Assembly (NCBI RefSeq): GCF_900100345.1
Contig: NZ_FMTT01000003.1
Coordinates: forward strand, 1-64,000
DNA length: 64,000 nucleotides
Direction of reading: 5' to 3'
Source: Paenibacillus tianmuensis
GTDB taxonomy: Bacteria; Bacillota; Bacilli; Paenibacillales; NBRC-103111
How positions within the stretch are numbered: the first letter of the stretch is position 1; every line of letters begins with the position of its first letter. The notes beneath the pieces were generated by a model. It saw nothing but the letters and a program-made list of their open reading frames with translations. It ran no database searches and was not told the origin of the DNA. The position numbers and the translations under genes are program-made. Positions 4,791 through 17,139 of the stretch are shown in pieces.

Positions 4791-5351
4791 TTGGATCAAT
4801 TGATAAAAATTACCGAAAAAGACGCAGACATCCAATTGGGTGAGTTTGTATCAACTAATTTTAAAAAAATAAAATATGATAAAAATGGTTGTGATGTTAT
4901 AGTAGAACCACCATTTAAATCTGCTCAAATAACAGTTCGTATGAATGATGGTGTAGATTTAGCTTATGCAGAACAATGTGCCAAACACTTTAATAATTTA
5001 AGTCCAGATACTATCTGCAAGTTGTTGGAATCTTCATGGCAATTTTGTCTTAAATATTGTGATTATTATGGGGAAGAGTTACCCGAAATAAAAGAACTTA
5101 ACGAGCTTTTATATTATATAGAACCATTTTGTATAGACATCGATAAGCCTAAAAGCAGTGATACTGCTTATACAGTTGAATTGCATTGTGATTGGGACGT
5201 CGAACACGGAATGTCTTGGATAATTAGAAATAGTGAAGTTCTTTATGTTGGTGTAGGAATGGTTCATTTTCAACTCAATGCTTGGGAAGATTTTGATGCC
5301 TACAAGAATAATGAAGGAAATTTTGTATTTGGTGTTCCAAACTGGGAATAG
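4791..5351 (+). CDS. DUF6985-like protein
   Basis: A 186-residue acidic soluble protein starting at TTG 4791 after GAGGTG (5 bases). The C-terminal half (about 125-186) reads YTVELHCDWDVEHGMSWIIR, then a VGVGMVHF strand and a terminal FGVPNWE. An acidic protein with a strand-rich end and a HCDWD...HGM core matches DUF6985-like proteins, often found singly in accessory regions and sometimes proposed as immunity-like. I recognise the layout, not a function. No partner toxin is adjacent. AT-rich composition suggests recent acquisition. Confidence 0.65.
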   Translation: MDQLIKITEKDADIQLGEFVSTNFKKIKYDKNGCDVIVEPPFKSAQITVRMNDGVDLAYAEQCAKHFNNLSPDTICKLLESSWQFCLKYCDYYGEELPEIKELNELLYYIEPFCIDIDKPKSSDTAYTVELHCDWDVEHGMSWIIRNSEVLYVGVGMVHFQLNAWEDFDAYKNNEGNFVFGVPNWE

Positions 5352-5556
5352 TCATGACTTTTTAGGCTATATCCTGTTCCAGTTTGTTCTGTCGTGCTAG
5401 CACGGAGTAAAAATTGTTTGTCTGATATGGCCGCTCTTTGGGGAGCAGAAATTTTGTGCGGATAAAATTAAAAAAGTTCAACAAACTCGTGCAATATGCG
5501 CAAAAATTAAAGCAATAAAGTGAAAAGAGGAGCTTCGAAGCTCCTCTTTCTGGATT
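5352..5556. other. AT-rich intergenic stretch
   Basis: No reading frame with a ribosome site is visible. The only structured element is the palindrome at 5524-5549. Confidence 0.5.
5524..5549. terminator. Perfect palindromic hairpin
   Basis: AAGAGGAGCTTCGAAGCTCC continues to TCTTT, a perfect self-complementary stem flanked by A and T bases on both sides. It could terminate transcription from either direction, after the DUF6985-like gene or facing it. The T-run is short (TTTC), so efficiency is doubtful. Confidence 0.55.
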
Positions 5557-5789
5557 CACACCTCTCCCGCCGATCGGTGTTGCTCGTGAGATCGACAGGA
5601 TGATGAAGGAATTCCAGATGAAACAAGGGGATATCGCCCAAAAGCTCGGCGTTACCCAAGCCTTGGCCTGAACCACTTCTTGGAATGCTGGAACGTGGCG
5701 AATTGAGCCAATCTACCGCACGTACGATTGTCGGGGTTGACGAAGTCGGGAGATCATGGGCTTGGAAAAAGACGGACAAAGCCTTATAA
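5557..5789 (+). pseudogene. Remnant of an HTH regulator
   Basis: One frame reads REIDRMMKEFQMKQGDIAQK then LGVTQALA and stops with TGA near 5670. A second frame resumes with LLGMLERGELSQSTARTI and runs to TAA 5787-5789. Helix-turn-helix sequence of the GDIAQKLGVTQALV type followed by LERGE is typical of small XRE/Cro-type or related regulators. There is no start codon with ribosome site and a frame break lies in the second helix. I infer a decayed regulator lying right against the leader of array 2. Confidence 0.5.
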
Positions 5790-5805
5790 TTTAACTATGC
5801 TTTTT

Positions 5806-5946
5806 GTCGTCGACCCCCAATGCTGCAAAAAAGCCCGGGGGTCGACGACAACGAAAGCTTCGCGGCAGAAGGGTTTGTAGCGTTAGCTGTTGGAGATACG
5901 AGAGTGTGGAATATGTGGAAATGGCGTTGTAGCGGGATTTTTATGG
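5806..5946 (+). promoter_or_regulatory. Leader of CRISPR array 2 with 13-bp hairpin
   Basis: The AT-flanked segment before array 2 contains a perfect 13-base inverted repeat, GTCGTCGACCCCC (5806-5818) and GGGGGTCGACGAC (5837-5849), with an 18-base loop. Bases 5910-5946 match the end of the array-1 leader with one mismatch. The hairpin has no counterpart in the 96 bases upstream of the shared block of array 1. The repeats read away from this segment, so it should hold the array promoter. Confidence 0.65.
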
Positions 5947-6721
5947 GTTTTAAACGTACCTATGAGGAATTGAAACGTCTTTCACTCCATTTGGTCCGGC
6001 CGAAGATGAATTGAGTTTTGAACGTACCTATGAGGAATTGAAACATTGGAGCAAATACCAATCTGGTGACCACGAAATTGAGTTTCGAATGTACCTATGA
6101 GGAATTGAAACATAAATCAGCAACACCATCAGGACCATTCTTCGCCAGTTTCGAATGTACCTATGAGGAATTGAAACCGTGTGAGGCGATCCAAACGCCA
6201 GATCACGATCATGTCGTTTCGAATGTACCTATGAGGAATTGAAACTCGTTTTGGAGCTTGTATTCAGTCTCCCGATCATCTGCGTTTCGAATGTACCTAT
6301 GAGGAATTGAAACCATGGCTTAATGGGGGCGACAAGGAGGACGTTATATGGTTTCGAATGTACCTATGAGGAATTGAAACGCTTCTTGGTGTACTCGCTC
6401 AGATCCATCTCGGTCCAGGTTTCGAATGTACCTATGAGGAATTGAAACATAAAAGTGTTATCCAGCTTCAAGAAGTTGTAGTACCTAGTTTCGAACGTAC
6501 CTATGAGGAATTGAAACCAGCATTGGACCTATGAGGAAAAGCGTGTGTTCTCAAGGTTTTGAACGTACCTATGAGGAATTGAAACTGGGCATAGAAATGC
6601 CCGGGTTCAGAAAGGGAGGTCATCGTTTTGAACGTACCTGTGAGGAATTGAAACTTCGCTGGCGCTCTCTTCTTCTAGTATATGTTCAATCGTTTTGAAC
6701 GTACCTATGAGGAATTGAAAC
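5947..6721 (+). CRISPR. CRISPR array 2, 12 repeats, 11 spacers
   Basis: Repeats of 30 bases start at 5947, 6015, 6082, 6148, 6216, 6284, 6351, 6419, 6488, 6556, 6625 and 6692. The 3' part (ACCTATGAGGAATTGAAAC) is constant except for CTGTGAGG in the repeat at 6625. The 5' part varies in blocks: GTTTTAAACG (first), GTTTTGAACG (second), GTTTCGAATG (six repeats, 6082-6448), GTTTCGAACG (6488) and GTTTTGAACG (last three). Spacers are 36-39 bases. Direction is plus, as in array 1, and the repeat is clearly the same family. No cas genes lie between or after the arrays in this window. Confidence 0.98.
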
Positions 6722-6811
6722 CCTTTTCCCAGTTTCGGCATTTTAGACCATAGCCAAACACGAACTCAAATTTTGAACCAAAACAGATCACCTGAAGCCT
6801 GGTTTTCTCCA

Positions 6812-6910
6812 TGTAAAACATTAATCGGGATAGATGGCGGAGCTGTGTTTGGAGGATATTTGCTAGGTTTGTCTATTAATGAGGATGGATATACCGAATA
6901 TTCGGTATAA
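6812..6910 (+). pseudogene. Possible metallophosphoesterase tail remnant
   Basis: Between the array and the next gene, one frame reads KTLIGIDGGAVFGGYLLGLS and ends EDGYTEYSV before TAA 6908-6910. IDxGAVFGGxL is a conserved piece near the C-terminus of PrpE/PP-type phosphoesterases. No upstream body exists because the CRISPR array ends at 6721. The last codons overlap the 20-base palindrome at 6890-6909. The identification rests on a short match. Confidence 0.3.
6890..6909. repeat. 20-bp perfect palindrome
   Basis: TATACCGAATATTCGGTATA is perfectly self-complementary. It lies in sequence with no intact gene on either side, so an operator role is not obvious; see findings. Confidence 0.6.
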
Positions 6911-6980
6911 AAGTACTGGTGGATTTTTTAAGAAACGCGTCACATCGATGGGGATTGTTTTTCTGGATGAAGATAGCATG

Positions 6981-7013
6981 AGGGAGTGATTAACACTCCC
7001 TACTTTATTTTGT
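6981..7013 (+). terminator. Terminator after CRISPR array 2 / gene end
   Basis: AGGGAGTG and CACTCCCT flank ATTAA, followed by TACTTTATTTT on the plus strand. It would stop rightward transcripts running out of array 2. It also lies just beyond the stop of the leftward lipoprotein gene. Confidence 0.6.
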
Positions 7014-7535
7014 AATAACCTCGCCAGAGTCGGAGTTAATTTTTACTGGGATTACCCTTTCCTTTTCTAATAAGCTACCAATCTCAATAGTCCATTGCTT
7101 TAAATCAGCATTAAATTGAACCTTCCTTATATAAGGCACATCTACTATGGTTTCTGAAAATCTTAAAGCTTTTTCTACTGCTGTTGCACGGCTTATTGAA
7201 CTATCAGTGTTGTTTGTTTGTGATTTAATGATCAATTTAGAACCTATTGCCTGTTCAGGATAGGATTCTGCGATTGCACCCGTAACCCATACTTCAACTT
7301 CCATACCTAGTTTTAATTGATTCTTTTCAAGATATCCTTTTTTTTCATCAATGATTTTTGCTTTAGAAATGGATACAGATATTGCTCTCGGTTCTTTTGC
7401 TTTCTCTTCAATAACTAAAACGGAGTTTTCTTCCAGTTTAGCAATGATCCCCGTCATAACATTCCTTTCTTTTTCTGCACAACCTGTTACAATGACGAAT
7501 AATAAAAATGAGAAAAAAAGAAAACTATATCTCAA
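7005..7535 (-). CDS. Lipoprotein, DUF3221-like with PepSY-like tail
   Basis: A 176-residue predicted lipoprotein. A hydrophobic signal (about 4-17) ends in the lipobox VTGC, so Cys19 would be lipidated and the protein tethered outside the membrane. Residues about 25-105 (MTGIIAKLEENSVLVIEE ... GMEVEVWVTGAIAESYPEQA) match the YobA/DUF3221 small beta-barrel pattern. The C-terminal ~65 residues (AVEKALRF...VQFNADLKQWTIEI...SGEVI) resemble a PepSY-like fold. Start is TTG 7535, with GGGGATGA upstream. Function is unknown; a periplasmic-face binding or folding role is only a guess. Confidence 0.75.
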   Translation of the reverse strand: MRYSFLFFSFLLFVIVTGCAEKERNVMTGIIAKLEENSVLVIEEKAKEPRAISVSISKAKIIDEKKGYLEKNQLKLGMEVEVWVTGAIAESYPEQAIGSKLIIKSQTNNTDSSISRATAVEKALRFSETIVDVPYIRKVQFNADLKQWTIEIGSLLEKERVIPVKINSDSGEVITK

Positions 7536-7574
7536 TTTATCATCCCCATGTTATCAAGGTAAGTAGGACAATTT

Positions 7575-7603
7575 CAGGTAGCTACTAAAAAAGTAGCTAC
7601 CTG
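7575..7603 (-). terminator. Hairpin after protease fragment
   Basis: CAGGTAGCTAC (7575-7585) and GTAGCTACCTG (7593-7603) form a perfect 11-bp stem with an A-rich loop (T-rich on minus). It lies 14 bases past the stop of the leftward protease fragment. Confidence 0.55.
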
Positions 7604-7616
7604 ATAAAAAGCAATA

Positions 7617-7990
7617 CTATGGACTAGTTGTAATCGGATATATCCCCATAGCATTTATTGCATTTTGGACATGCGTATAAATTCCACCAGAACCTGTGTG
7701 AACCCCCATAAGTGTAAATCCAGCCCAGATCGTTGAGCCGCTATCTCCCTTCATCGAAGAATAACTAGCTTTTCTTAAATTAGTATGATAACCTGTGTCC
7801 TTGAATTCACCAGACCAGTTTCTTGATTCTAATGTACCACAACTTGTATTGTCTGAGAAACCTGCTGAAATACATACGGTTTGACCTACAGTTTCTTGAT
7901 CTACTTGTTCAACAAATGATACTTTTGAAAAATTCAATTGATTATAGGCATAGATGTAAGCTGTGGCGTTTGACGAATGTATTCAACTGT
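7617..7990 (-). pseudogene. S1-type serine protease, C-terminal fragment
   Basis: The frame ending at 7617 encodes about 106 residues from TTG 7937, and the same frame stays open to about 7990 without a start or ribosome site. MKGDSGSTIW carries the S1-family catalytic Ser motif (GDSGS), followed by GVHTGSGGIYTHVQNAINAMG, the usual C-terminal helix region. GQTVCISAG...TSCGTL matches the disulphide pair before the active-site loop of streptogrisin-like proteases. The His and Asp of the triad and the signal peptide are missing, so this is a headless fragment. The upstream side runs straight into another headless gene. Confidence 0.7.
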
Positions 7991-8290
7991 GTAAAACTGG
8001 AGTGCTTTTGGAGAAAAAGGATACGGAATTAAAGGCAAGGAAGAAAGAATATGATAAAGCTGTGCCTATGCTTCAAAACTATATAAAGGAACTTGGTAAG
8101 GAAAACAAAGTACATTTGGTAATTGAACTTTTGGACATTTATTTACAAACTGAGAACATGAAAGAAATTGCTGAAATTTTAGATTCTGAAGCCGAGCTTT
8201 TACCCTATCGCCCACAGACACCACAAAAACATTTTGATATAGTTATCATCAAAGTAAACAAAGAAAAAGTTTTATCTGATGCATTCATCT
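7963..8290 (+). pseudogene. Truncated TPR regulator (RRNPP-like)
   Basis: The frame MAFDECIQLCKTGVLLEKKD ... has no ribosome site. It continues with VIELLDIYLQTENMKEIAEI and LDSEAELLPYRPQTPQKHFD. This parallels the C-terminal TPR part of the intact regulator at 11878-13170 (LLEVLLQMNDDDSIEKLI, then FFPFENATPYQYSEMGKY). The HTH and most TPR repeats are missing at its left end, where it abuts the protease fragment. The last ~40 codons of the open frame run through the terminator of the next gene, so the homologous part stops near 8250. I infer a decapitated paralogue. Confidence 0.55.
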
Positions 8291-8325
8291 CAAAAAAAGA
8301 AGTCTTCAGTTCAAATGCTGAAGAC
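8291..8325 (-). terminator. Terminator of PH-domain gene
   Basis: On the minus strand GTCTTCAG (8318-8325) and CTGAAGAC (8302-8309) pair, followed by TTCTTTTTTT. It lies 40 bases beyond the stop of the leftward gene ending at 8367. Confidence 0.8.
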
Positions 8326-8366
8326 TCCATTCTTGGATTTAGCTTATATTGGCTTGCATCTCCGTC

Positions 8367-8798
8367 CTAATCCAGCTTAATCGGAATGCGGTCGGAAGAG
8401 TGCTTCCGCAGCGCGGACACAAATGCTTCCCGGTCCTTAGGCGCAACGTGCGCAAAGCTCATTCCGTTGTTATATTGGATATTAAGCCGATTCGTGGAAA
8501 AGGCAGGTCCCGCCAGCAGCGTTTTTATGCTTGTTACGGACGTGATGGAATCCAGCGGAATTTTACTTTTAAAAATACCGAGTACAATAATGACATGCGT
8601 GTCTGTTATGACATAATGGGTATTATACCAAACCAGCAAGAAAAACGTTTCAAACACCATAATAACCAAAATCAGCGGAATTTTTTCTCCAAGCGTCGCT
8701 GGAGCAAACCAAATGGCAACGATAACAGCCAGAAGAAGTAAAACAATGATGCCGAACAAGAACGCAAATGCTGCGTCCCTTTGAGGTTCAAAACGCAC
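8367..8798 (-). CDS. Membrane PH-domain (bPH_4-like) protein
   Basis: A 143-residue protein with two membrane helices (about 10-32 and 41-58), then a cytoplasmic PH-like domain. The stretch HYVITDTHVIIVLG, IPLDSITSV, RLNIQYNNG and APKDREAFVSALRKH follows the pattern of DUF1200/bPH_4 proteins. Start is GTG 8798 with GGAGGGG six bases upstream. It lies directly after sdpC on the same strand but behind sdpC's own terminator. Such proteins have no fixed function. Its position raises the possibility of self-protection against the Sdp toxin, which is inference only. Confidence 0.8.
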   Translation of the reverse strand: MRFEPQRDAAFAFLFGIIVLLLLAVIVAIWFAPATLGEKIPLILVIMVFETFFLLVWYNTHYVITDTHVIIVLGIFKSKIPLDSITSVTSIKTLLAGPAFSTNRLNIQYNNGMSFAHVAPKDREAFVSALRKHSSDRIPIKLD

Positions 8799-8840
8799 CT
8801 GGTTCCCCTCCCTAATGACTTCGCCAGCATTCCCATGCGC

Positions 8841-8890
8841 AGAAAAAACAAACAGCAGGATCGGGGAGCATACTGAGATGCCCCCGATCC
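8841..8890 (-). terminator. Terminator of sdp operon
   Basis: GGATCGGGG and CCCCGATCC arms (8858-8890, with extra GCAT/ATGC pairing) are followed on the minus strand by TGCTGTTTGTTTTTTC. It lies 37 bases past the sdpC stop. Confidence 0.8.
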
Positions 8891-8926
8891 CCGGCAGACC
8901 ACGGATATTGAGTTGCTACGTTTAAC

Positions 8927-9568
8927 TTACTGCTGACTCGAAAGTCTGTCAATCACTTTATTTACAAATAATTCTTTTTCAAGCTGAGAAGAAGCGGTCA
9001 TTTCCGCTTTAGGCCAAAATTTCACTTTGTTATAAACCCAATAAGCAAATCCGGCCACCACCTGAACGCCCGCCGCCGCGGTATGAACTACGGCCGCATA
9101 GTTATAGACGCCTGCGCCTATCATGACAACAACCCCTGCCGCGAATGCGTTTACCGTGGGATCATCGGCATTCTGGTACATGAGGCCTTGTCTGTTTATC
9201 GCTTCATTCAACAAGGTTCCGCCTTTGATGAAGGCTTGATCAATGGCCACGTAATCTTTGCTGTAAACGGCCTTTTCAAACTCGTCAAAAAAGGCGGGCG
9301 AGCTCTGTTTCATGTCCGCGACGGTTAAGGCGACCCATTTCTTCGCTTCTTCACTGTTCGTATCCTTCAGAGTGTTTGTTGGCCATATTTCCGGAAAAAG
9401 ATTGCTTACCGGTCCTTGCCCGAAAACAATGCCGACAAACATTTCTTCTCCCGTAAACGCTCTACGTTCGCCCGACTTCGCCCACACGGATGTGTACGTG
9501 CCGATTGCCAATACGAAAACCAGCATAGCTGCGATGATCGCCTGCATTTTTGACCTGATAAGGATCAA
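8927..9568 (-). CDS. sdpC: SdpC family toxin precursor
   Basis: A 213-residue secreted precursor. A signal peptide (about 8-30, ending SVWA) precedes FTGEEMFVGIVFGQGPVSNL and FPEIWP, the family's conserved N-terminal block. A helical propeptide follows, then a long Ala/Gly/Val hydrophobic stretch (about 135-180) where the mature peptide of Bacillus subtilis SdpC is cut out. That peptide collapses the membrane potential of sibling cells during early sporulation. This homologue has no cysteine at all, so it cannot form the disulphide of B. subtilis SDP. Start is TTG 9568 with GGAGG 8 bases upstream. It is the last gene of the sdpABC operon. Confidence 0.9.
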   Translation of the reverse strand: MILIRSKMQAIIAAMLVFVLAIGTYTSVWAKSGERRAFTGEEMFVGIVFGQGPVSNLFPEIWPTNTLKDTNSEEAKKWVALTVADMKQSSPAFFDEFEKAVYSKDYVAIDQAFIKGGTLLNEAINRQGLMYQNADDPTVNAFAAGVVVMIGAGVYNYAAVVHTAAAGVQVVAGFAYWVYNKVKFWPKAEMTASSQLEKELFVNKVIDRLSSQQ

Positions 9569-9675
9569 GGATCATACCTCCCTAAAAAGAATATTTTCCC
9601 ACCGCATTCCTCACATTTTATGCGTATGTAAGCCCTTGATGCAGATCCGTGGCCTGCCTTTTATCGTGTGAGGCT

Positions 9676-10650
9676 TTAGTGAGCTTCGTCAAACGAAGGG
9701 GCCGCCCGCCGACGACGGGTAAGACTCCATGTTCTTAATCTTTTGAGAGAGCTACGGAAGCGGTATTCTTGTTCAACCGGCCTCAGATACAAGATAAGCA
9801 GGCCGAACATAATCAACGAAAAGCTGTACAGACCGATCATGATTGCAATCACTCCATGAAGAGCAAAGCCCAGGAACAAAAAATAGCTCCAATAACGCTT
9901 TGGCACAAACAAAGCTGCGAATAAGAGAATTTCCGCGACAAACGTTCCCCAAGTAGGTATGACTACCAAGCTTGTATTCAGAACAAATTCGGTCGCTTTA
10001 ATCAGCAAGGGCGGCATGCCAAGCAGGGAATCGTTCAGAAAATAATAAGTGGCGGTGCCGTCAATCCATTCTTCTTGTTTTAACTTTGCGACAGCTGCGT
10101 TCAAATAAAGGATGGAGGCCTGAAAACGGATGGCAACAATGGTCAATAGCGCGACAATATGCGGAAGCACAGCGCCGCTTCGGACTTGGTCGGCTTGCGT
10201 TTGAGCATCGATATTTTCCCAGTGCCATTTTCTGGAGTCTGTTAACGTAAGGGGCAATAAAAGCAACGTAAGCACCGCACTGACTTGCTCCCCGCCATCC
10301 AACGTCAACGCCGAGGTCTGCATGCTGTGTGCAATCCACCAGTGGAATACTCCCGTGATTCTTGGCCTCCAGCCGATGGCAACCAACAGAAGAATCCCGA
10401 TACAAAGCCATCGAATCAGATTTAAATAAGAATATTCGTTCGGTACCGTACAAAAAATGCTAAGGTTATAAGAACAATTGGGATATTCGGCAATGCCGGC
10501 GGCAGGCCGAAAAAATATGGTCGCATCATTCAGCAACAGCGTCAGCAAGGTAGATACCGCCAACAAAGTTCTTGCCAAACCGTAAACGTTTGTCCATGGA
10601 TATACCGACGACAACGTGTGTAAAGTGTATTTTCCTATTTTTTCGAGCAT
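9676..10650 (-). CDS. sdpB: SdpB family maturation protein
   Basis: A 324-residue membrane protein with about eight hydrophobic segments, of the HTTM (vitamin-K-carboxylase-like) superfamily to which SdpB belongs. Recognisable pieces are YGLARTLLAVSTLLTLLLND near the N-terminus and the central SILYLNAAVAKLKQEEWIDG then ATYYFLND. In B. subtilis SdpB works with SdpA to turn the SdpC precursor into active SDP peptide. Its start overlaps the end of sdpA by 16 bases, implying translational coupling. The basic C-terminal tail is cytoplasmic. A 107-base gap with no terminator separates it from sdpC. Confidence 0.9.
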   Translation of the reverse strand: MLEKIGKYTLHTLSSVYPWTNVYGLARTLLAVSTLLTLLLNDATIFFRPAAGIAEYPNCSYNLSIFCTVPNEYSYLNLIRWLCIGILLLVAIGWRPRITGVFHWWIAHSMQTSALTLDGGEQVSAVLTLLLLPLTLTDSRKWHWENIDAQTQADQVRSGAVLPHIVALLTIVAIRFQASILYLNAAVAKLKQEEWIDGTATYYFLNDSLLGMPPLLIKATEFVLNTSLVVIPTWGTFVAEILLFAALFVPKRYWSYFLFLGFALHGVIAIMIGLYSFSLIMFGLLILYLRPVEQEYRFRSSLKRLRTWSLTRRRRAAPSFDEAH

Positions 10651-11201
10651 TGGACCGACACCCTTACAATTTTTGATGGCATCACGATATTATTTTTTTG
10701 TTTGCTCCATGCCCACGGAACCGGTTGTTGCAGCACAAGACCGAGTTCGTTGCATAGCGTGGGCTTCGGAGAGGTATTGATAACGCTTATTTTAGCTTGT
10801 GATTCCGTTAAACATATTGACGGTTCCTTTGAGCATTTGGTCCACGCATCGCTTTTAATGGAGGCTTGGATTAGCCCCACTTCCAATCCTTGCGCCCTTC
10901 CCGACCGTTTGATGCCGAACCAATTTTCCGTCCGGTTGTTAGGCCAGTTCACTGTTGGGCGTTGAGTCGATAGATCGTACACGAGCAACTGGTCGTCTCT
11001 CGGATTTTTACTGTAAAATCCCCACCCTTGCGGGAACACGGACTTAAACGCATTCAAGTCGGGGATCAGTTGGGACACAGGATTCACAGGCATGGATGAC
11101 GTAATAGAGAGCAGAAAGACGAATAGCCACAGCAAGCTGACCAAAACCGCAAAGGCCCCCAAACGATAGTGCAGTTTCCGCGCATCAGCAGGGGAGTTCA
11201 T
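10635..11201 (-). CDS. sdpA: SdpA family maturation protein
   Basis: A 188-residue protein with one membrane helix (about 14-36, ALVSLLWLFVFLLSI region). The extracytoplasmic or soluble part is marked by FPQGWGFYSKNPRDDQLLVY and NWFGIKRSGRAQGLEVGL, which is the SdpA signature. Together with SdpB it is needed for SDP toxin maturation. I took ATG 11201 because AAGGAAAGGAGCT lies about 10 bases before it; an ATG 25 codons upstream has no ribosome site. Five cysteines, four of them in the C-terminal third, suggest disulphides. First gene of the operon. Confidence 0.9.
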   Translation of the reverse strand: MNSPADARKLHYRLGAFAVLVSLLWLFVFLLSITSSMPVNPVSQLIPDLNAFKSVFPQGWGFYSKNPRDDQLLVYDLSTQRPTVNWPNNRTENWFGIKRSGRAQGLEVGLIQASIKSDAWTKCSKEPSICLTESQAKISVINTSPKPTLCNELGLVLQQPVPWAWSKQKNNIVMPSKIVRVSVQCSKK

Positions 11202-11348
11202 TCCAGTACCAGCTCCTTTCCTTCCAGTTATTTGAGCAGTGGGACTAAATCGGGCAGACAGTTGTTCACTTGTCATATTCTTGCAAGCTGTTTCTCCTGC
11301 CCCTCCTTGTAAGAAGTAAATCTTTTTATTTGCCAGGCCATCATAATT

Positions 11349-11585
11349 TTATGAATACAACACTTCTTTAACTGCCTTGTATGCATCCACAGTTGAGATT
11401 GGGACATTTGAATCCGTTGCATCAACACAAAAATACTCATTGACATCGGAAGAATGAGTACTTGTGATGTGTCGCTGAGGAGAATAAGAGAAATGAACAG
11501 AAGCCGCACTCGCAGATACTAAAAACAAACAAAGTAAAAACAAAAGAAATTTAACTGGCTTCAATTCAAGCAACTTCCTTAGATT
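11349..11585 (-). CDS. Small secreted protein
   Basis: A short frame with a clear signal peptide. From a TTG start near 11570-11585, behind AAGGAAG, it reads LKPVKFLLFLLCLFLVSASA followed by a polar ~50-residue tail with VHFSYSPQRHI and YFCVDATDSNVPIST. It is transcribed away from the intact RRNPP-type regulator at 11878, about 300 bases apart. No family is recognised. Secreted short proteins beside such regulators are sometimes signalling precursors, but the tail is long for that. The exact start is uncertain. Confidence 0.45.
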   Translation of the reverse strand, partial: NLRKLLELKPVKFLLFLLCLFLVSASAASVHFSYSPQRHITSTHSSDVNEYFCVDATDSNVPISTVDAYKAVKEVLYS

Positions 11586-11694
11586 ATTAATCTGCGAACA
11601 ATTCGTCGCGACCTCATCATTCAAACATAATTTATCATAATCTCATAAAATATGCTATAGGAATTAATATCTATTTTTATTACAGCGATTACTT

Positions 11695-11714
11695 GAAATT
11701 ACCCGAGTAATTTC
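11695..11714. promoter_or_regulatory. Inverted repeat, candidate operator
   Basis: GAAATTAC (11695-11702) and GTAATTTC (11707-11714) flank CCGA. It lies in the divergent intergenic region, about 100 bases upstream of the regulator's promoter. It could be the target of the regulator at 11878 or an RNA hairpin; nothing decides between them. Confidence 0.4.
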
Positions 11715-11807
11715 AGTTATTACCAAATAATCACTTATACTATGTAGAAATTTATCGAACCGTTGTATCTCGGACGAAATTAGGGGAATATCATAAAAAT
11801 CAATTAA

Positions 11808-11836
11808 TTGTAAAACAAAACGCATTTTGCTATAAT
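11808..11836 (+). promoter_or_regulatory. Promoter of the HTH-TPR regulator
   Basis: TTGTAA (-35) and TATAAT (-10, 11831-11836) are separated by exactly 17 bases. Transcription would start near 11843, leaving a 35-base leader that contains the GGAAGG ribosome site before ATG 11878. Confidence 0.65.
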
Positions 11837-11877
11837 CGACCAATGTATAATATTGAATAAAAGGAAGGTAATGTATT

Positions 11878-13170
11878 ATGGTGGATATTAAGCATCGGAA
11901 TAACACCATCGCAGATTTCATCTTCCAACTTAGAAAAGAGAAAAATTTGACATATGCGAATCTTGAGGAACTAACAGGTGTTCGCAGCGCAGTGCTTCAT
12001 AAAATTGAATCGGGGGCCACAAAACATCCAGAATATAAGACGGTGAAAGCCTTGGTTCGAGCCTTGCCAGTTCATTACGAACAGATCATAAAGGCTTACA
12101 TAGAAGAAGAAGAAGGAACAGAAACCTTATTTGAAATATTGCGAGATACTGTTGCCACAGGGGAAAATGATTCTTTAATCTCCATGACAGCATTGAGGCT
12201 ACTACAATCATCTCAAAAGAAAACGGAAGAATCACTTCAGCGATTGTTTGATTTTACGGAAACATTAAATGAAGACAAGCTGAAAGTGCTTCTTTATACG
12301 GTAATTATTAAATATTCCAGAGAACGTGGATTGCCTTGTTTTGTTGGCAAAGGTACTTTTAAAAAATATTTGATTAATCGAAGCAATTTATCTTTGCTAG
12401 ACGAGACTTTTAGAGAAGGCGAAGAAGTTATTCATTACACTGATTTTTTAGCAAAAGAAGAGAAGTGTATATATTATTACCGCATGGCACTTCATGCCTA
12501 TGCTCTTAAAAAATATGATAAGTGCATTGAATTAGGGAAATCGGGCCATGCCGTAGATACTACACATAATGGACTCAAAGAGCAGGTTGCTTTAGCAATT
12601 TGTAATTCATTTTGGTACCAAAGAAACTATAATGCTTTGGAGGAACATATCCAACTCTATGATAAGTTGAATTATCAAATTATCATTGATCGTTTGAAAA
12701 TCTTTCGTGCCATGATTCTAGCACGAACCGATAGATATGTGGAATCTCTTCCGTTATTGTGGGAATGTCTAGATGAAGCGCAGGGGGATAAACGTCTACC
12801 TAGATTGAATTTACTATTAGAAGTATTGTTACAGATGAATGATGATGACTCAATAGAAAAACTGATTAACTCGGATGAAGAACAATTCTTTCCTTTCGAG
12901 AATGCAACACCTTATCAATATTCTGAAATGGGAAAGTATTACAAGTTTAAAGGTACATTTTTTACTAAAAAGGGTCTGACTAATCAAGCGATAGAGACCT
13001 ACTTAAAAAGCGTAAATTATTATGGCAAAATTGGCTCTTATCAAGATATCGTCGAACTTTCTTATGACATTTTTTCCTCTTTGAGTTCTAATAAAAATAT
13101 ACTGGACTTAGGGCTTCTAGAAGAGACAAAAAAGGTATATAATGGAATCATAAACAAAGGGGAGGCTTAA
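11878..13170 (+). CDS. HTH-TPR regulator of the RRNPP type
   Basis: A 430-residue cytoplasmic regulator. Residues 10-65 form an XRE-type helix-turn-helix (IADFIFQLRKEKNLTYANLE, then LTGVRSAVLHKIESG). The rest is a helical solenoid with TPR-like repeats, for example YYYRMALHAYALKKYDKCIE and MGKYYKFKGTFFTKKGLTNQ. This layout and length (about 400 residues) match peptide-receptor regulators of the PlcR/NprR/AimR group, which bind a re-imported peptide in the TPR groove and change DNA binding. A 47-codon exported-peptide gene starts 3 bases after its stop, the standard partner arrangement. GGAAGG precedes ATG. A truncated paralogue lies at 7963. Confidence 0.8.
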   Translation: MVDIKHRNNTIADFIFQLRKEKNLTYANLEELTGVRSAVLHKIESGATKHPEYKTVKALVRALPVHYEQIIKAYIEEEEGTETLFEILRDTVATGENDSLISMTALRLLQSSQKKTEESLQRLFDFTETLNEDKLKVLLYTVIIKYSRERGLPCFVGKGTFKKYLINRSNLSLLDETFREGEEVIHYTDFLAKEEKCIYYYRMALHAYALKKYDKCIELGKSGHAVDTTHNGLKEQVALAICNSFWYQRNYNALEEHIQLYDKLNYQIIIDRLKIFRAMILARTDRYVESLPLLWECLDEAQGDKRLPRLNLLLEVLLQMNDDDSIEKLINSDEEQFFPFENATPYQYSEMGKYYKFKGTFFTKKGLTNQAIETYLKSVNYYGKIGSYQDIVELSYDIFSSLSSNKNILDLGLLEETKKVYNGIINKGEA

Positions 13171-13172
13171 CT

Positions 13173-13316
13173 ATGAGAAGGCTTATCATGTGCATTGCAA
13201 CGTTTTCAATAATAATGACATGCTCATTGACCATCGCAAATCATGATTTTATTTTGGCTCATCCCGAAAGTAACAAACCAGTAGCGAGATCTTATGTTGA
13301 CGATCCCGGCTATTGA
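13173..13316 (+). CDS. Exported signalling-peptide precursor (candidate)
   Basis: A 47-residue frame beginning MRRLIMCIATFSIIMTCSLT. It has the shape of a Phr/AimP-like pro-peptide: positively charged start, hydrophobic export segment to about residue 22, short polar linker, and a C-terminal end VARSYVDDPGY. GGGGAGG, located inside the last codons of the regulator gene, lies 7 bases before ATG 13173, so the two are translated from one message. A strong terminator follows at once. In RRNPP systems the active signal is 5-10 residues from the C-terminus; here SYVDDPGY or a part of it is the natural guess. No homologue can be named from memory. Confidence 0.7.
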   Translation: MRRLIMCIATFSIIMTCSLTIANHDFILAHPESNKPVARSYVDDPGY

Positions 13317-13344
13317 TATAAATAATTGAAAAGTAACTGCACAA

Positions 13345-13374
13345 AACAGGCGAGTATATGCCTGTTTTTTTTGT
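13345..13374 (+). terminator. Terminator after regulator-peptide unit
   Basis: AACAGGC (13345-13351) and GCCTGTT (13360-13366) form a stem, followed by TTTTTTTTG. It closes the regulator-peptide transcript. Confidence 0.85.
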
Positions 13375-13468
13375 TTTATTTCTTTGAAATTTATTTAATC
13401 CTTTTAAAGAAATAAATAATACACTAACTCCAGTTACCTAAATTAATGTTGTAAAGGGGAATATTTCC

Positions 13469-13690
13469 ATGTGCGAATCGGTATTCAGAAAGGAGGGTTA
13501 TGCCCGATACGATAGTAGCCATTTCAGCGACGAAACATTGCAGAACGTAATGAAAAACATCCTGAACCAAATGGAAGAGGCCGTACAGCAAGGCGAGAGT
13601 TTAACGAGTGAATATGTGGTCCAATTGAGCCAACAATTAGACGCATATGTTTTAATTGCTCAAATTCGGAAAATGCGATGTGTAAACTAG
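13469..13690 (+). CDS. Spo0E-like aspartyl-phosphate phosphatase
   Basis: A 73-residue protein. Its centre VMKNILNQMEEAVQQGESL, followed by VVQLSQQLDAYVLIAQIRK, fits the two-helix Spo0E family, whose SQxLDxxI motif inserts into the active site of Spo0A~P and removes the phosphate, delaying sporulation. The Asp of SQQLD is the key residue. An AAAGGGG ribosome site lies upstream of ATG. It sits between the RRNPP peptide unit and an AbrB-like gene, so the neighbourhood is rich in transition-state control. The N-terminal 20 residues are unusual for the family and may be extra. Confidence 0.65.
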   Translation: MCESVFRKEGYARYDSSHFSDETLQNVMKNILNQMEEAVQQGESLTSEYVVQLSQQLDAYVLIAQIRKMRCVN

Positions 13691-13717
13691 AAATCGTTAT
13701 TGTTCGAGGTGTGGTTG

Positions 13718-14194
13718 ATGCAAGATGGCAGAAGAACGGGAATTGTCAGGGTGGTAGACAATTTTGGGAGAATAGTAATCCCAACAGAGGTTAGGCATGT
13801 ATTGAATTTACATCCCAATGTCATGACAGAGTATTTCTGTGATGACGAGAGAAAGGCGATTATGGTTTATAGATATCAAGCAAAAGAGTGTTTGTTTTGC
13901 TCAGGTAAGGAACAAACCTTTTACTTCAAAAAATTTTATATTTGTATGTCATGTATTCAAAGTCTTCCAGCGCTTCAAGTTTTCCTTGAACGGGTGGAAC
14001 GCGAACGGTTAGGTGTGGCAAATAAAAACCTTTCAAAAAGGAAAAAATTGACTCCAAAAAGGAAAGAAGCATTGGAGCGTTTGCAGCAAGCAATAAAGGA
14101 AAACCCTAAAGCTTCGCAAAAAAAATTAGCCCAAAAGTTAGGAGTTTCGCAATCATGGGTTAGTCAGTTGCTTAGGCATCATGGAGATTCGTAA
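13718..14194 (+). CDS. AbrB-like regulator with CxxC pairs and C-terminal HTH
   Basis: A 158-residue protein with three parts. Residues 7-50 are a SpoVT/AbrB DNA-binding domain (GIVRVVDNFGRIVIPTEVRH). Residues 58-79 hold CLFC and CMSC, a likely zinc knuckle (Cys58, 61, 76, 79). Residues 131-155 form a helix-turn-helix (ASQKKLAQKLGVSQSWVSQL). AbrB-type proteins repress stationary-phase genes; the added zinc and HTH elements suggest a second DNA or partner contact. ATG 13718 is chosen because GAGGTG lies just upstream; a TTG six codons earlier has no site. It follows the Spo0E-like gene by 27 bases, so they may form an operon. Confidence 0.75.
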   Translation: MQDGRRTGIVRVVDNFGRIVIPTEVRHVLNLHPNVMTEYFCDDERKAIMVYRYQAKECLFCSGKEQTFYFKKFYICMSCIQSLPALQVFLERVERERLGVANKNLSKRKKLTPKRKEALERLQQAIKENPKASQKKLAQKLGVSQSWVSQLLRHHGDS

Positions 14195-14350
14195 ATTCGT
14201 TATTCTATATGCTAGCTATAATTATGGGGGAATAGATTTCTGTCCTCCATTTTGCATTTGTACAGGTACAGGATAATGAATATTAATATATCAACAGTAA
14301 AAAACAGAAACTACATATAAAGTTAGTTTAACAAAAGTAAACATATATGG

Positions 14351-14379
14351 TTGCAAAAGTAAATTAAATTGATTATAAT
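14351..14379 (+). promoter_or_regulatory. Promoter of small XRE regulator
   Basis: TTGCAA (14351-14356) and TATAAT (14374-14379) are 17 bases apart. The -10 lies upstream of ATG 14420, which rules out the longer in-frame start at 14369. Confidence 0.7.
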
Positions 14380-14419
14380 GGTAGTGTGTTGTTGTTCAGC
14401 AAGGGGGAGGACCGCAAAA

Positions 14420-14626
14420 ATGAAAATTAAAGCCAAAACGAACGCGATCGTACGAGCCCGGATCGTCAAAGGAATGACTCAGCGGGACCTGGCCCAGCTT
14501 TCGGGCTTGAGCTATGCTTATATCAGCTTGCTGGAGCGATCGGTCAAGGCCGTTGGCCCGGGCACGGCGAAGAAGCTCAGCGATCTTTTGGAGCAGCCTC
14601 TGGAGGAATTGTTCACCATAGAATAG
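14420..14626 (+). CDS. Small XRE-family regulator
   Basis: A 68-residue protein that is almost only a Cro/C1-type helix-turn-helix: VRARIVKGMTQRDLAQLSGL, then SYAYISLLERSVKAVGPGTA and a closing helix KKLSDLLEQPLEELF. Phage-repressor-like proteins of this size usually bind as dimers to short palindromes. The start is set by AAGGGGGAGG 9 bases before ATG and by the promoter at 14351-14379. It stands alone, ending at a hairpin 13 bases after its stop. Its targets cannot be read from the sequence. Confidence 0.85.
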   Translation: MKIKAKTNAIVRARIVKGMTQRDLAQLSGLSYAYISLLERSVKAVGPGTAKKLSDLLEQPLEELFTIE

Positions 14627-14639
14627 ACCTGCGACAGAT

Positions 14640-14664
14640 GCGGGAAGCCGGCTTCCCGCCTTTC
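14640..14664. terminator. Convergent terminator
   Basis: GCGGGAAGCCGGCTTCCCGC is a perfect 20-bp palindrome followed by CTTTCTTCC. It lies between the convergent XRE gene and the diguanylate cyclase gene. Confidence 0.65.
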
Positions 14665-14692
14665 TTCCAAGCGCGTACGGACCGGTATCGGC

Positions 14693-15835
14693 CTAGAAGC
14701 CGACGACTTTGTTTTTGCCGGACGTCTTGGCCCGGTACATCGCTTCATCCGCCTGCTTGATCAATTCCTCCGCGTTTACCCCTTTTTTGAACATACTGTA
14801 TCCCATACTTAACGTTACCATGGTTTCTGTCTCCACACGGCTTCGGATACGCTCCGACAAGCCTGCGGCATCGATTTCCGGGTTCGTAACCAGCACGACC
14901 ATTTCTTCCCCGCCGTACCGTCCGCAAATACCGGAGTCTTCCGTTTCTTCCTTCACGATCTGCGCCACCTGCTTAAGCACTTGGTCTCCCATATGGTGAC
15001 CTTTCGTATCGTTGAGCTTCTTGAAGTTGTCGATGTCGCTGAAGATGACCGATACCGGCGCTCGTTGCTGCACGTATTGGGTGACGCGGTTGTAAAAATA
15101 TTTCCGGTTGTACAGCTTCGTAAGCCCGTCCGTAATGGAGGAGTTGTAAATGGCCTGCATGATCTCGATGACCCGTTCGAAAATGAACAGGAAGAGAACA
15201 ATATAAAAGACGAACGGAATCGTTTGCTCCAGAAATTTCAGGGCGATCTGCTTGCTATCAAATAAATAGACGTTGGCCATATGAATCGTATGGGTCGTAA
15301 AATAAACGGTCAGCATTAACTGATACTTCCCGTTCTGGCCGATGCGGGAGTTCACGAGCAAGAAGCTCATGAACAGCAGCAAAAACAAGTACAGCTCCAT
15401 ACCAAGCGGACGAAGCAATCCGGAATGATCCTCGCTGCCCTGCAGCCAGTCCGGAGCGAACCAGTACGAAACCGAGACGACGGCGGTTAATAGGATAAAG
15501 AGGACGAAGACAACGAAGTCCCGCTTGCGGGTTGCGTTATACAGCTGATAAATACCGATATTGAGCGTGACAAAGGCAAGCACCTTGAGCAGCAGCGCGA
15601 TGAACTCTTGCACGGGGGTTATGTCGTGAGCCAAGGTCTTTTCGATGAGCTGGGCGTGTTGGACGAACAGGATACACAGCGCAATGATTATGGAGAAATA
15701 TCCGATTTTGCGGCGGGACAGCAACAGTCGGAATGAGACGATAAACGTCATCGCAATGATGACGATCAGCATCGAATGCATAAAGATCGAACCGGTCGGT
15801 CCGAAGATCAAATCCCAAATCGTCTGATTGTTCAT
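14693..15835 (-). CDS. Membrane diguanylate cyclase (GGDEF)
   Basis: A 380-residue enzyme. Residues 15-225 contain about seven hydrophobic helices forming a membrane sensor. Residues 230-380 are a GGDEF domain with DGLTKLYNRKYFYNRV, SDIDNFKKLND (metal and base binding) and the active-site loop RYGGEEMVVL (308-312). It should make cyclic di-GMP from two GTP. The loop reads GGEEM rather than GGEEF, a conservative change. I see no RxxD inhibitory site five residues before the loop, so product inhibition may be absent. The gene is divergent from the glycosyltransferase gene. Confidence 0.9.
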   Translation of the reverse strand: MNNQTIWDLIFGPTGSIFMHSMLIVIIAMTFIVSFRLLLSRRKIGYFSIIIALCILFVQHAQLIEKTLAHDITPVQEFIALLLKVLAFVTLNIGIYQLYNATRKRDFVVFVLFILLTAVVSVSYWFAPDWLQGSEDHSGLLRPLGMELYLFLLLFMSFLLVNSRIGQNGKYQLMLTVYFTTHTIHMANVYLFDSKQIALKFLEQTIPFVFYIVLFLFIFERVIEIMQAIYNSSITDGLTKLYNRKYFYNRVTQYVQQRAPVSVIFSDIDNFKKLNDTKGHHMGDQVLKQVAQIVKEETEDSGICGRYGGEEMVVLVTNPEIDAAGLSERIRSRVETETMVTLSMGYSMFKKGVNAEELIKQADEAMYRAKTSGKNKVVGF

Positions 15836-15999
15836 GAAACGCGCGGAAGCCTCACTTTGTAAACGGGTGCATGGTACTGATTATACCAAACATATATTCG
15901 TTTTGGGAAGTCTTGTCGTCGCATTCCGGAACTGTTAGGATGATAGTGACGAAGCGCCCTTGCGCTTCGCGAACAACGGGAGAGGCCGAGGTGGGTAGG

Positions 16000-17139
16000 A
16001 TGCGTATTCTTCAAGCGTTATTTTTTCCGCCGGAACAGCCTGGCGGGGTTTCTTCCATGGTTCCTTTCATGCTGGACCGCTTCAACAAGCGGGGCTGGGA
16101 GATGGAGCTCTTTTCGCTGCCCAAACGGGTGCGCGGCAAAGGCACCGGGGAAATTCGGTTCTCTACGTTCGACTGGGAGCCGTATGCCGGCCATCCGGTG
16201 GTCGATAAATACATACAAACAATGAAGGATTATATTTGGTGGACGAAGATGCGGATCAAGTCGACGTACGATTTGATTCACGCCCACCATCCGATCGCCG
16301 GGCTGGTCATGAAGCAGCTGTTTCCGGACACCCCGCTGATCATGACGGTTCACTCCAGCTATGAGCGAGAGCTTGTGCTGAACGGCAAAATTCCGGCAGA
16401 CGGCCCGGAGCATGCCTTCCTGACCTCGATTTACCGCGAGCTGGAGGAAAAGGCGGACCAGTTGATTACGGTGTCCAACTCGTTCAAGCAGTATTTGTCC
16501 GAGTACGTGCAGGAGCCGGAGCGGATCGGGGTAATTCCGAACGGCTTTGATGAGAAGCGGTTCCGTCCGGTCCATCACGAGAATCAAGTGCCACAGCTGA
16601 TCACGGTCTGCCGGCTTGTGCCCGCCAAAGGGCTTGATACGCTGCTGCATGCCTGCGCGGAGCTGAAACGTCGGGGGCAGCCGTTCGTGCTGCATCTGAT
16701 CGGAGACGGACCGATCCGTACGGAGCTGGAGGAGCTTGCGCAGCAGCTCGGGATTTATGAGGAAACGATTTTTTACGGCTATATGCTTCACCCGGAGGAC
16801 TTTATACCGTTCTTTGACGTGTTTGTCCTGCCTTCGCGGGCGGAAGCGTTTGGTTCGGTGTTTGCGGAAGCGGCGCTTTGCGGTCTGGCCGTTGTCGGCA
16901 CGAACGTCGGCGGCATTGCCGAGCAGATCGAGCATGGCACCAACGGCCTGCTGGTTCCGGTTGATGACGTCCAGGCGCTGGCCACGGCGCTGGAGAAGGT
17001 GATCGGCGATCCGATGTACCGGTATCAGCTGTCGCGTGTGGCGCTGGAGAAGGCGCTCAAGACGTACTCGATGACGCACGTCGTTCAGCAACTCCGAAAT
17101 GTGTATCGGACGTACCGCAAGGCGCCTCCTGCGGAGTAA
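16000..17139 (+). CDS. GT4 family glycosyltransferase
   Basis: A 379-residue GT-B enzyme. The N-terminal half has the PPEQPGGVSSMVPFMLDRF glycine loop and HAHHPIAGLV. The nucleotide-sugar half has VCRLVPAKGLDTLLHACAEL and the EAFGSVFAEAALCGLAVV motif, whose Glu residues hold the donor phosphates, then GTNVGGIAEQIEHGTNGLLV. It probably transfers a sugar to a lipid or polymer at the cytoplasmic face; acceptor unknown. ATG 16000 follows GAGGTGGGTAGG; upstream codons in the same frame lack a ribosome site. Its end is 39 bases before yhaO, but a functional link is not evident. Confidence 0.9.
   Translation: MRILQALFFPPEQPGGVSSMVPFMLDRFNKRGWEMELFSLPKRVRGKGTGEIRFSTFDWEPYAGHPVVDKYIQTMKDYIWWTKMRIKSTYDLIHAHHPIAGLVMKQLFPDTPLIMTVHSSYERELVLNGKIPADGPEHAFLTSIYRELEEKADQLITVSNSFKQYLSEYVQEPERIGVIPNGFDEKRFRPVHHENQVPQLITVCRLVPAKGLDTLLHACAELKRRGQPFVLHLIGDGPIRTELEELAQQLGIYEETIFYGYMLHPEDFIPFFDVFVLPSRAEAFGSVFAEAALCGLAVVGTNVGGIAEQIEHGTNGLLVPVDDVQALATALEKVIGDPMYRYQLSRVALEKALKTYSMTHVVQQLRNVYRTYRKAPPAE

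Follow-up and report, generated by a model that had tools for sequence, protein, structure and literature searches.

A likely RRNPP-type peptide–receptor pair in front of a Spo0E-like gene in Paenibacillus tianmuensis

Results and Discussion

The window analyzed here comprises 64,000 nucleotides of Paenibacillus tianmuensis (NZ_FMTT01000003.1, positions 1–64,000, forward strand) and includes an intact gene for a regulator with a helix-turn-helix (HTH) and a tetratricopeptide repeat (TPR) part, a 47-codon gene directly behind it and a Spo0E-like gene further downstream. We consider it likely that the regulator, in the following called the receptor, and the 47-codon gene are a pair of the RRNPP type, in which the signal peptide would change the hold of the receptor on the DNA in front of spo0E. 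An earlier reading of the bare DNA letters (the sequence-only reading) had proposed an RRNPP pair at this place, and the elements it had named, an intact regulator, an exported-type gene of 47 codons, a ribosome-binding site within the final receptor codons and a terminator, were all found at the locus. The receptor stop codon (13168–13170) and the peptide ATG (13173) are separated by two bases, and the peptide open reading frame (ORF), MRRLIMCIATFSIIMTCSLTIANHDFILAHPESNKPVARSYVDDPGY, comprises 47 codons and has the C-terminal end SYVDDPGY. The proposed assignment is supported by the HTH domain together with a predicted TPR superhelix, by a small exported ORF that recurs behind related receptors and by the conserved C-terminus of the encoded peptides.

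As the sequence-only reading had suggested, we looked for small ORFs behind homologous regulators using a rule for length, start position, hydrophobic segment and ribosome-binding site. This rule is passed at 48 of 68 distinct receptor 3' ends, whereas of the control ends, taken from other genes of the same loci, 8 of 274 pass, and of the shuffled sequences 8 of 680, the 68 receptors being distinct by exact DNA near the 3' end only, with related species counted separately, broken copies included, one of originally 69 receptors left out as it lies at a contig end, and the frame-shifted locus L038 counted among the 48 passes. An expression for the C-terminus, written after viewing the peptides, fits 35 of the 68 receptor ends but none of the 274 controls or 680 shuffles. 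AT-rich DNA is rich in short ORFs and the version in L038 is disrupted, yet given these counts it is scarcely credible that the ORF follows an ordinary HTH/TPR regulator by chance.

To describe the peptides we used 26 non-redundant sequences from the Paenibacillus/Brevibacillus part of the family, taken from receptors above 195 bits only, with L038 dropped and the peptide of phage Sundance (L115), which is just below the hydrophobicity limit, added by hand. Glycine is present at position −2 in all 26 of them, proline at −3 in 22 and aspartic or glutamic acid at −4 in 22, while the last residue is H, Y, L, F, M or W. The N-terminus carries K or R at position 2 in 24 of 26 and at position 3 in 24 of 26, is hydrophobic and shows few fixed letters further on. 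It is therefore the C-terminus that is conserved and the export segment that is looser, the reverse of the pattern that the sequence-only reading had said would speak against a signal. Peptides of the Chengkuizengella type mostly end in GW or DW and not in the DPG type. The readable ends in the clade of the window receptor are SYVDDPGY, SHVDDPGF, AYVDDPGF and AYVDDPGL, the fifth member, L038, looking frame-shifted, and those of the phage type are AYTDDPGY (SecTim467), VYTDNPGY (Sundance) and AYLDDPGY (IMG/VR contig L149). As a similar ending occurs in relatives from other bacteria and from phages, the peptide is probably a real cell-to-cell signal of the kind known from neighbouring families. 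Eight peptides can be read in the window clade and the phage/plasmid clade together, and five of them (L001, L037, L023, L114 and L116, but not L010, L115 and L149) have a basic residue just ahead of the final eight, R at position −9 in the window peptide, which would fit an octamer as the mature form. The export segment and the nearby Sdp toxin genes could also suggest that the small product is itself the effector, a small exported toxin or antimicrobial. We regard this as very improbable because beyond the MKK/MRR start the conservation is centred on the final four positions, which is the pattern of a processed signal, the small exported ORF co-segregates with the receptor clade and its C-terminus is short and polar.

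For the receptor, the profile HTH_3 matches residues 17–68 (31.7 bits, cut-off 23) and phrog_32768 matches at 2.8e-134, whereas no curated TPR family in the profile libraries is matched. The structure prediction that the sequence-only reading had called for gave an all-helical AlphaFold2 model (mean pLDDT 88.8, a per-residue confidence score) whose C-terminal half is predicted to be a TPR-type superhelix, and a Foldseek search with this model ranks AimR first at a low TM-score. However, TPR chains of LGN and O-GlcNAc transferase score at least as high as RRNPP receptors in the VIA list, so the fold alone shows merely HTH plus TPR. No match named AimR was obtained from Pfam, NCBIfam and PHROGs, for which it was not checked which AimR models they contain. 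Relatives of solved structure were also sought by sequence, and the matches listed in the PDB search (60 of 67) are HTH and generic TPR chains only; Rap-Phr, NprR-NprX and PlcR-PapR are absent among them. As in the AimR-AimP arbitrium system, HTH plus TPR is the predicted make-up of the receptor, and members of the family occur in phages. In contrast to arbitrium, the window copy has bacterial genes on both sides, on a contig of 224 kb, and the neighbouring gene is a sporulation regulator, which is also the case in phages SecTim467 and Sundance.

In the P. elgii-type group, meaning the P. tianmuensis genome and its nearest Paenibacillus relatives, a Spo0E gene lies behind 33 of 37 receptors, one of these counts being a spo0E shared by two tandem receptors (L054, first receptor), and a gene with AbrB and HTH parts lies behind 30 of 37; seven of the loci examined have fewer than 1300 bases behind the receptor. 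Outside this group the blastp rule finds Spo0E behind 2 of 13 receptors and the AbrB/HTH gene behind none of 13, with Sundance as one miss of this rule that nevertheless has an annotated spo0E. The sequence-only reading had suggested that the pair could time sporulation or killing, and these counts support sporulation as the context. It had also named the neighbours: SdpA, SdpB, SdpC and the Spo0E-like ORF exceed their profile cut-offs, whereas the gene called AbrB-like hits the SpoVT and AbrB models only below them.

Between the terminator and spo0E lies a dyad that we propose as a candidate operator of spo0E for the receptor. L038 and L010 retain the arms with a different spacer between them, and in the window clade four of four dyads reach p 0.05 or better with 60 shuffles. 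Over all 33 loci ten dyads reach this level, three of them probably being terminators, and beyond the window clade the dyads are weak. The P. tianmuensis genome, G015 (Paenibacillus sp. MZ04-78.2) and G009 (P. tyrfis) each have a single copy of the core pattern, always 5' of spo0E. A single copy is also present in G361, a polymyxa-group genome that lacks a family receptor, and none in G003, and a reversed control pattern is absent from all five genomes.

From this we suggest the following model. The 47-codon product would be exported and then processed so that only the C-terminal SYVDDPGY, or less than that, is left, the mature peptide would re-enter the cell and bind to the TPR half of the receptor, and this binding would alter the hold of the receptor on the DNA 5' of spo0E, with the dyad as putative operator. 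For AloR13, the receptor of an AloR-AloP system, it has been described that it supports spo0E expression and that its peptide shuts spo0E off (Voichek et al. 2020, PMC7425212). If the analogy to AloR13 holds, the free receptor would support spo0E expression and the peptide would shut it off, so that at high density phosphorylated Spo0A (Spo0A-P) might rise and sporulation be favoured. The features of the locus are summarized in Table 1.

Table 1: Features of the receptor–peptide locus and its neighbours in the window.
Feature	Position	Strand	Evidence
HTH/TPR receptor, predicted transcription factor, 430 aa, intact, ATG start	11878..13170	+	HTH_3, AlphaFold2, Foldseek, phrog_32768
47-aa exported-type pro-peptide, ATG start; predicted mature end SYVDDPGY or shorter	13173..13316	+	ORF reading, C-terminal conservation in the family, R at −9
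Ribosome-binding site AGGGGAGG of the peptide gene, within the final receptor codons	13158..13165	+	sequence reading
Sigma-A-like receptor promoter TTGTAA-17-TATAAT	11808..11836	+	block kept in upstream alignment of window and 22 relatives
Intrinsic terminator 3' of the peptide gene, stem and T run	13343..13368	+	ACAG/CTGTT stem at matching place in 25/33 aligned loci (counted by eye)
Dyad TTTATTTCTTTGAAA-12-TTTTAAAGAAATAAA, candidate receptor operator of spo0E	13375..13416	.	dyad test and genome pattern counts
Spo0E-like gene, likely output	13469..13690	+	PF09388 24.1 bits, cut-off 23
164-codon gene, likely co-output; N-terminus of AbrB/SpoVT type, two CxxC pairs and an HTH at the C-terminus	13700..14194	+	spore_V_T and AbrB below cut-off; phrog_4681 5.2e-15
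GAACAATTCGTCGCGAC element between receptor and divergent gene	11596..11612	.	recurrence upstream of family receptors
Divergent 71-aa exported-type ORF, TTG start; heads leftward unit that may run on into sdpA	11349..11564	-	ORF and exported-gene rule
sdpA	10635..11276	-	SdpA 148.8 bits, cut-off 25
sdpB	9676..10650	-	TIGR04033 272.2 bits, cut-off 178.4
sdpC toxin precursor	8927..9568	-	TIGR04032 136.2 bits, cut-off 99.2

The upstream side of the receptor points to a second possible output. A divergent exported-type gene is present upstream of 24 of the 38 receptors with enough sequence but only 13 of 235 control genes, a result obtained after the rule had been loosened once with equal limits for receptors and controls (strict version 15 of 38 versus 7 of 235), and its start lies about 200–490 bases from the receptor within a searched range of 60–520. 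The GAACAATTYGTCGCGAC element adjoins the start of this gene. In the P. tianmuensis genome all three element sites are located about 275 bases before a family receptor, in G015 eight of nine, and the exact GTCGCGAC is present in 10 of 41 upstream regions. The element is absent from G009, G025, G361 and G066, although G009 and G066 have receptors. The ninth element in G015 (L130, around 1501, one mismatch) lies between two exported-type ORFs with no receptor in the 2.4 kb of sequence examined.

It is conceivable that the pair is a quorum switch whose main output is not spo0E but the divergent exported-protein unit of the 71-aa ORF and sdpABC, and besides the frequency of the divergent gene and the position of GTCGCGAC, where it is found, this would also agree with the stretch from the 71-aa ORF to sdpA, in which neither a promoter nor a terminator of consensus type was found. 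Against it, the divergent genes vary from locus to locus: the five that were put to Pfam (L038, L002, L005, L008 and L010) gave one M23 peptidase, one C39-like protein, one DUF6426 match below cut-off and two without a match, and profile searches with the 71-aa ORF itself (11349–11564) gave no family. The element, furthermore, is common to receptors whose recognition helices differ, and the receptor-bearing G009 lacks it. Sdp as a conserved partner of the receptor had to be rejected, since only one of six Sdp places in 25 genomes adjoins a family receptor, and this adjacency was seen in the P. tianmuensis genome alone; the Sdp link is local to the window locus. We regard the divergent unit as main output as rather unlikely and prefer the spo0E side. 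For the proposed timing of killing through Sdp there is thus the adjacency in this one genome, though many family receptors do have a divergent exported-type gene. One contig of G019 carries both an SdpC gene and a family receptor, about 75 kb apart, and a second SdpC-type gene is present in the P. tianmuensis genome (G000:C111:1063–1590).

AloR membership was our first working idea, as the AloR-AloP systems (PMC7425212) likewise combine an HTH plus TPR receptor with a short exported propeptide just 3' and often with spo0E next, and they too are found in Paenibacillaceae in many copies per genome. The name AloR also appears in PMC9765709. We located AloR13 through a primer printed in PMC7425212, which gave it with one mismatch in 8 of 392 genomes, and the propeptide of one of these loci (L078) has at its end the AloP13 sequence as published, with SHGRGG. 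No significant match between the window receptor and the eight AloR13 proteins was obtained by blastp, phmmer or an hmmsearch profile; the best two-sequence comparison (E 0.018) is a 45-column stretch pairing HTH residues with the far C-terminus. In three polymyxa-group genomes the family profile finds HTH-sized pieces only, plus one TPR-sized piece (E 0.005). An AloR13 search of the P. tianmuensis genome finds nine places, none of which is a family locus, so both families coexist in this genome at separate loci. The peptide ends differ as well, being of the SHGRGG type in AloP and mostly DPG[HYFL] here. A profile–profile comparison of the family with AloR gave a probability of 97.3 at 13% identity, aligned over HTH and TPR, which indicates a remote RRNPP kinship. 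Despite this kinship, the shared gene order of receptor, peptide and spo0E and the common occurrence in Paenibacillaceae, we rejected our first idea, and another AloR-AloP system as in Paenibacillus polymyxa is improbable. In P. tyrfis (G009:C6, upstream of L064) a family receptor lies back to back with an AloR-like receptor.

The family can instead be connected to a predicted one. Bernard 2023 (PMC10075063) reports a novel predicted RRNPP cluster 8 of Paenibacillaceae in chromosomes, plasmids and phages, states that B. laterosporus LMG 15441 has a plasmid with one system of each kind, AloR and cluster 8, and describes spo0E or abrB genes adjoining phage RRNPP pairs. Plasmid pBRLA33 of this strain (NZ_CP007807; L113) carries exactly one family receptor (9893–11167), followed by a 44-codon ORF, and one AloR homologue (11604–12968) in tandem, while the second plasmid NZ_CP007808 has a further AloR and no family member. 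Since pBRLA33 agrees with what is stated for the LMG 15441 plasmid, the family is most likely cluster 8, with which it also shares the combination of a receptor with a Sec-type propeptide. The pair had been called new-looking at the outset: it is indeed not AloR, but it very probably belongs to this already predicted cluster, and spo0E beside such pairs has been published. In the sections of Bernard 2023 consulted here there is no mention of the dyad, the DPG ending, an exchange of cassettes or divergent genes for exported proteins.

Family members were found in 14 of 99 genomes searched including that of P. tianmuensis. Among the named carriers are P. tyrfis, P. elgii, P. ehimensis, P. oleatilyticus, Brevibacillus and Chengkuizengella, and members also occur in 7 of 72,556 plasmid records (Brevibacillus, Paenibacillus), in 5 of 50,697 phage records with some double entries (the Brevibacillus phages SecTim467 and Sundance, and a remnant in Jenst) and in three IMG/VR contigs. 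The P. tianmuensis genome has eight matching places, namely the window, the intact L002, four interrupted copies (L003, L004, L007 and L008, with the break no more than about 350 bases from where the contig ends) and one broken copy in two frames (L005/L006). Besides the window, the 3' side is readable in four copies (L002, L004, L005 and L007), each of which has a small exported ORF, spo0E and the AbrB/HTH gene there. In Chengkuizengella (L068, L073) further receptor-like genes for about 470 aa adjoin family members; these fail the small-ORF rule.

The nearest relative of the window receptor, from Paenibacillus sp. MZ04-78.2 of the same genus, is 97% identical. Its receptor–peptide cassette (L037, 481–1919), likewise 97% identical, lies at the edge of a contig and is not followed by spo0E. 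Compared to L037 the window shows 92–100% identity per 100-base block over 11880–13380 (receptor, peptide and terminator), then 42–61%, and 68–85% over the 300 bases upstream. A different pattern is seen with the positional homologue L038, which is 98–100% identical in the HTH part (11880–12079), 58–92% over the TPR part, peptide and dyad (12080–13479) and again 92–99% from spo0E onward. The simplest reading would be that the sensing half was exchanged and the DNA-binding half retained, and altogether the receptor–peptide cassettes look exchanged between loci. The cassette has a G+C content of 0.35, the window one of 0.49. According to a 2016 phage paper the SecTim467 copy lies inside a putative transposable region and Jenst retains the DNA-binding part only.

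Some further observations concern the surroundings of the pair. A block TTTATCGAAT (11745–11765) is kept 5' of the receptor promoter in the window and its relatives and resembles a Spo0A box. At 7963–8370 a decayed piece of another family receptor is found (phrog_32768, 0.00073) and on the opposite strand, at 7617–7937, a piece of a secreted-protease-like gene (Peptidase_S39, below cut-off); together they give the impression of a second locus of this type that has decayed. The window also contains a CRISPR array at 5947–6721 with 12 Rfam CRISPR-DR2 repeats on the minus strand, and an Rfam scan of 5000–16000 at gathering scores gave these repeats only and no match in the intergenic regions.

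Conclusion

In summary, a receptor and a 47-codon gene of P. tianmuensis likely form an RRNPP-type pair with spo0E as output. Several anatomical features of the locus were not found described in the open-access literature, nor did we find an experiment on this receptor family there. A more far-reaching and doubtful idea would be a two-way density switch, in which one receptor sets spo0E/abrB through its own dyad as well as an exported effector unit, at this locus a small exported protein and the Sdp cannibalism toxin, so that one peptide would set both killing and sporulation, in which the receptor–peptide half is exchangeable between loci, and in which the Brevibacillus phage copies with their own spo0E (AYTDDPGY and AYLDDPGY compared to SYVDDPGY) might listen in or speak. 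With the present analysis this RRNPP subfamily gains a testable signal, namely a short peptide whose last residues are mostly D-P-G and then H, Y, F or L, together with a candidate operator and a gene named as output. In this Paenibacillus group the genomes contain two peptide–receptor families without blastp-level similarity to each other, both known with spo0E neighbours, and as phages carry a nearly identical peptide ending, phage–host eavesdropping on sporulation becomes directly testable.
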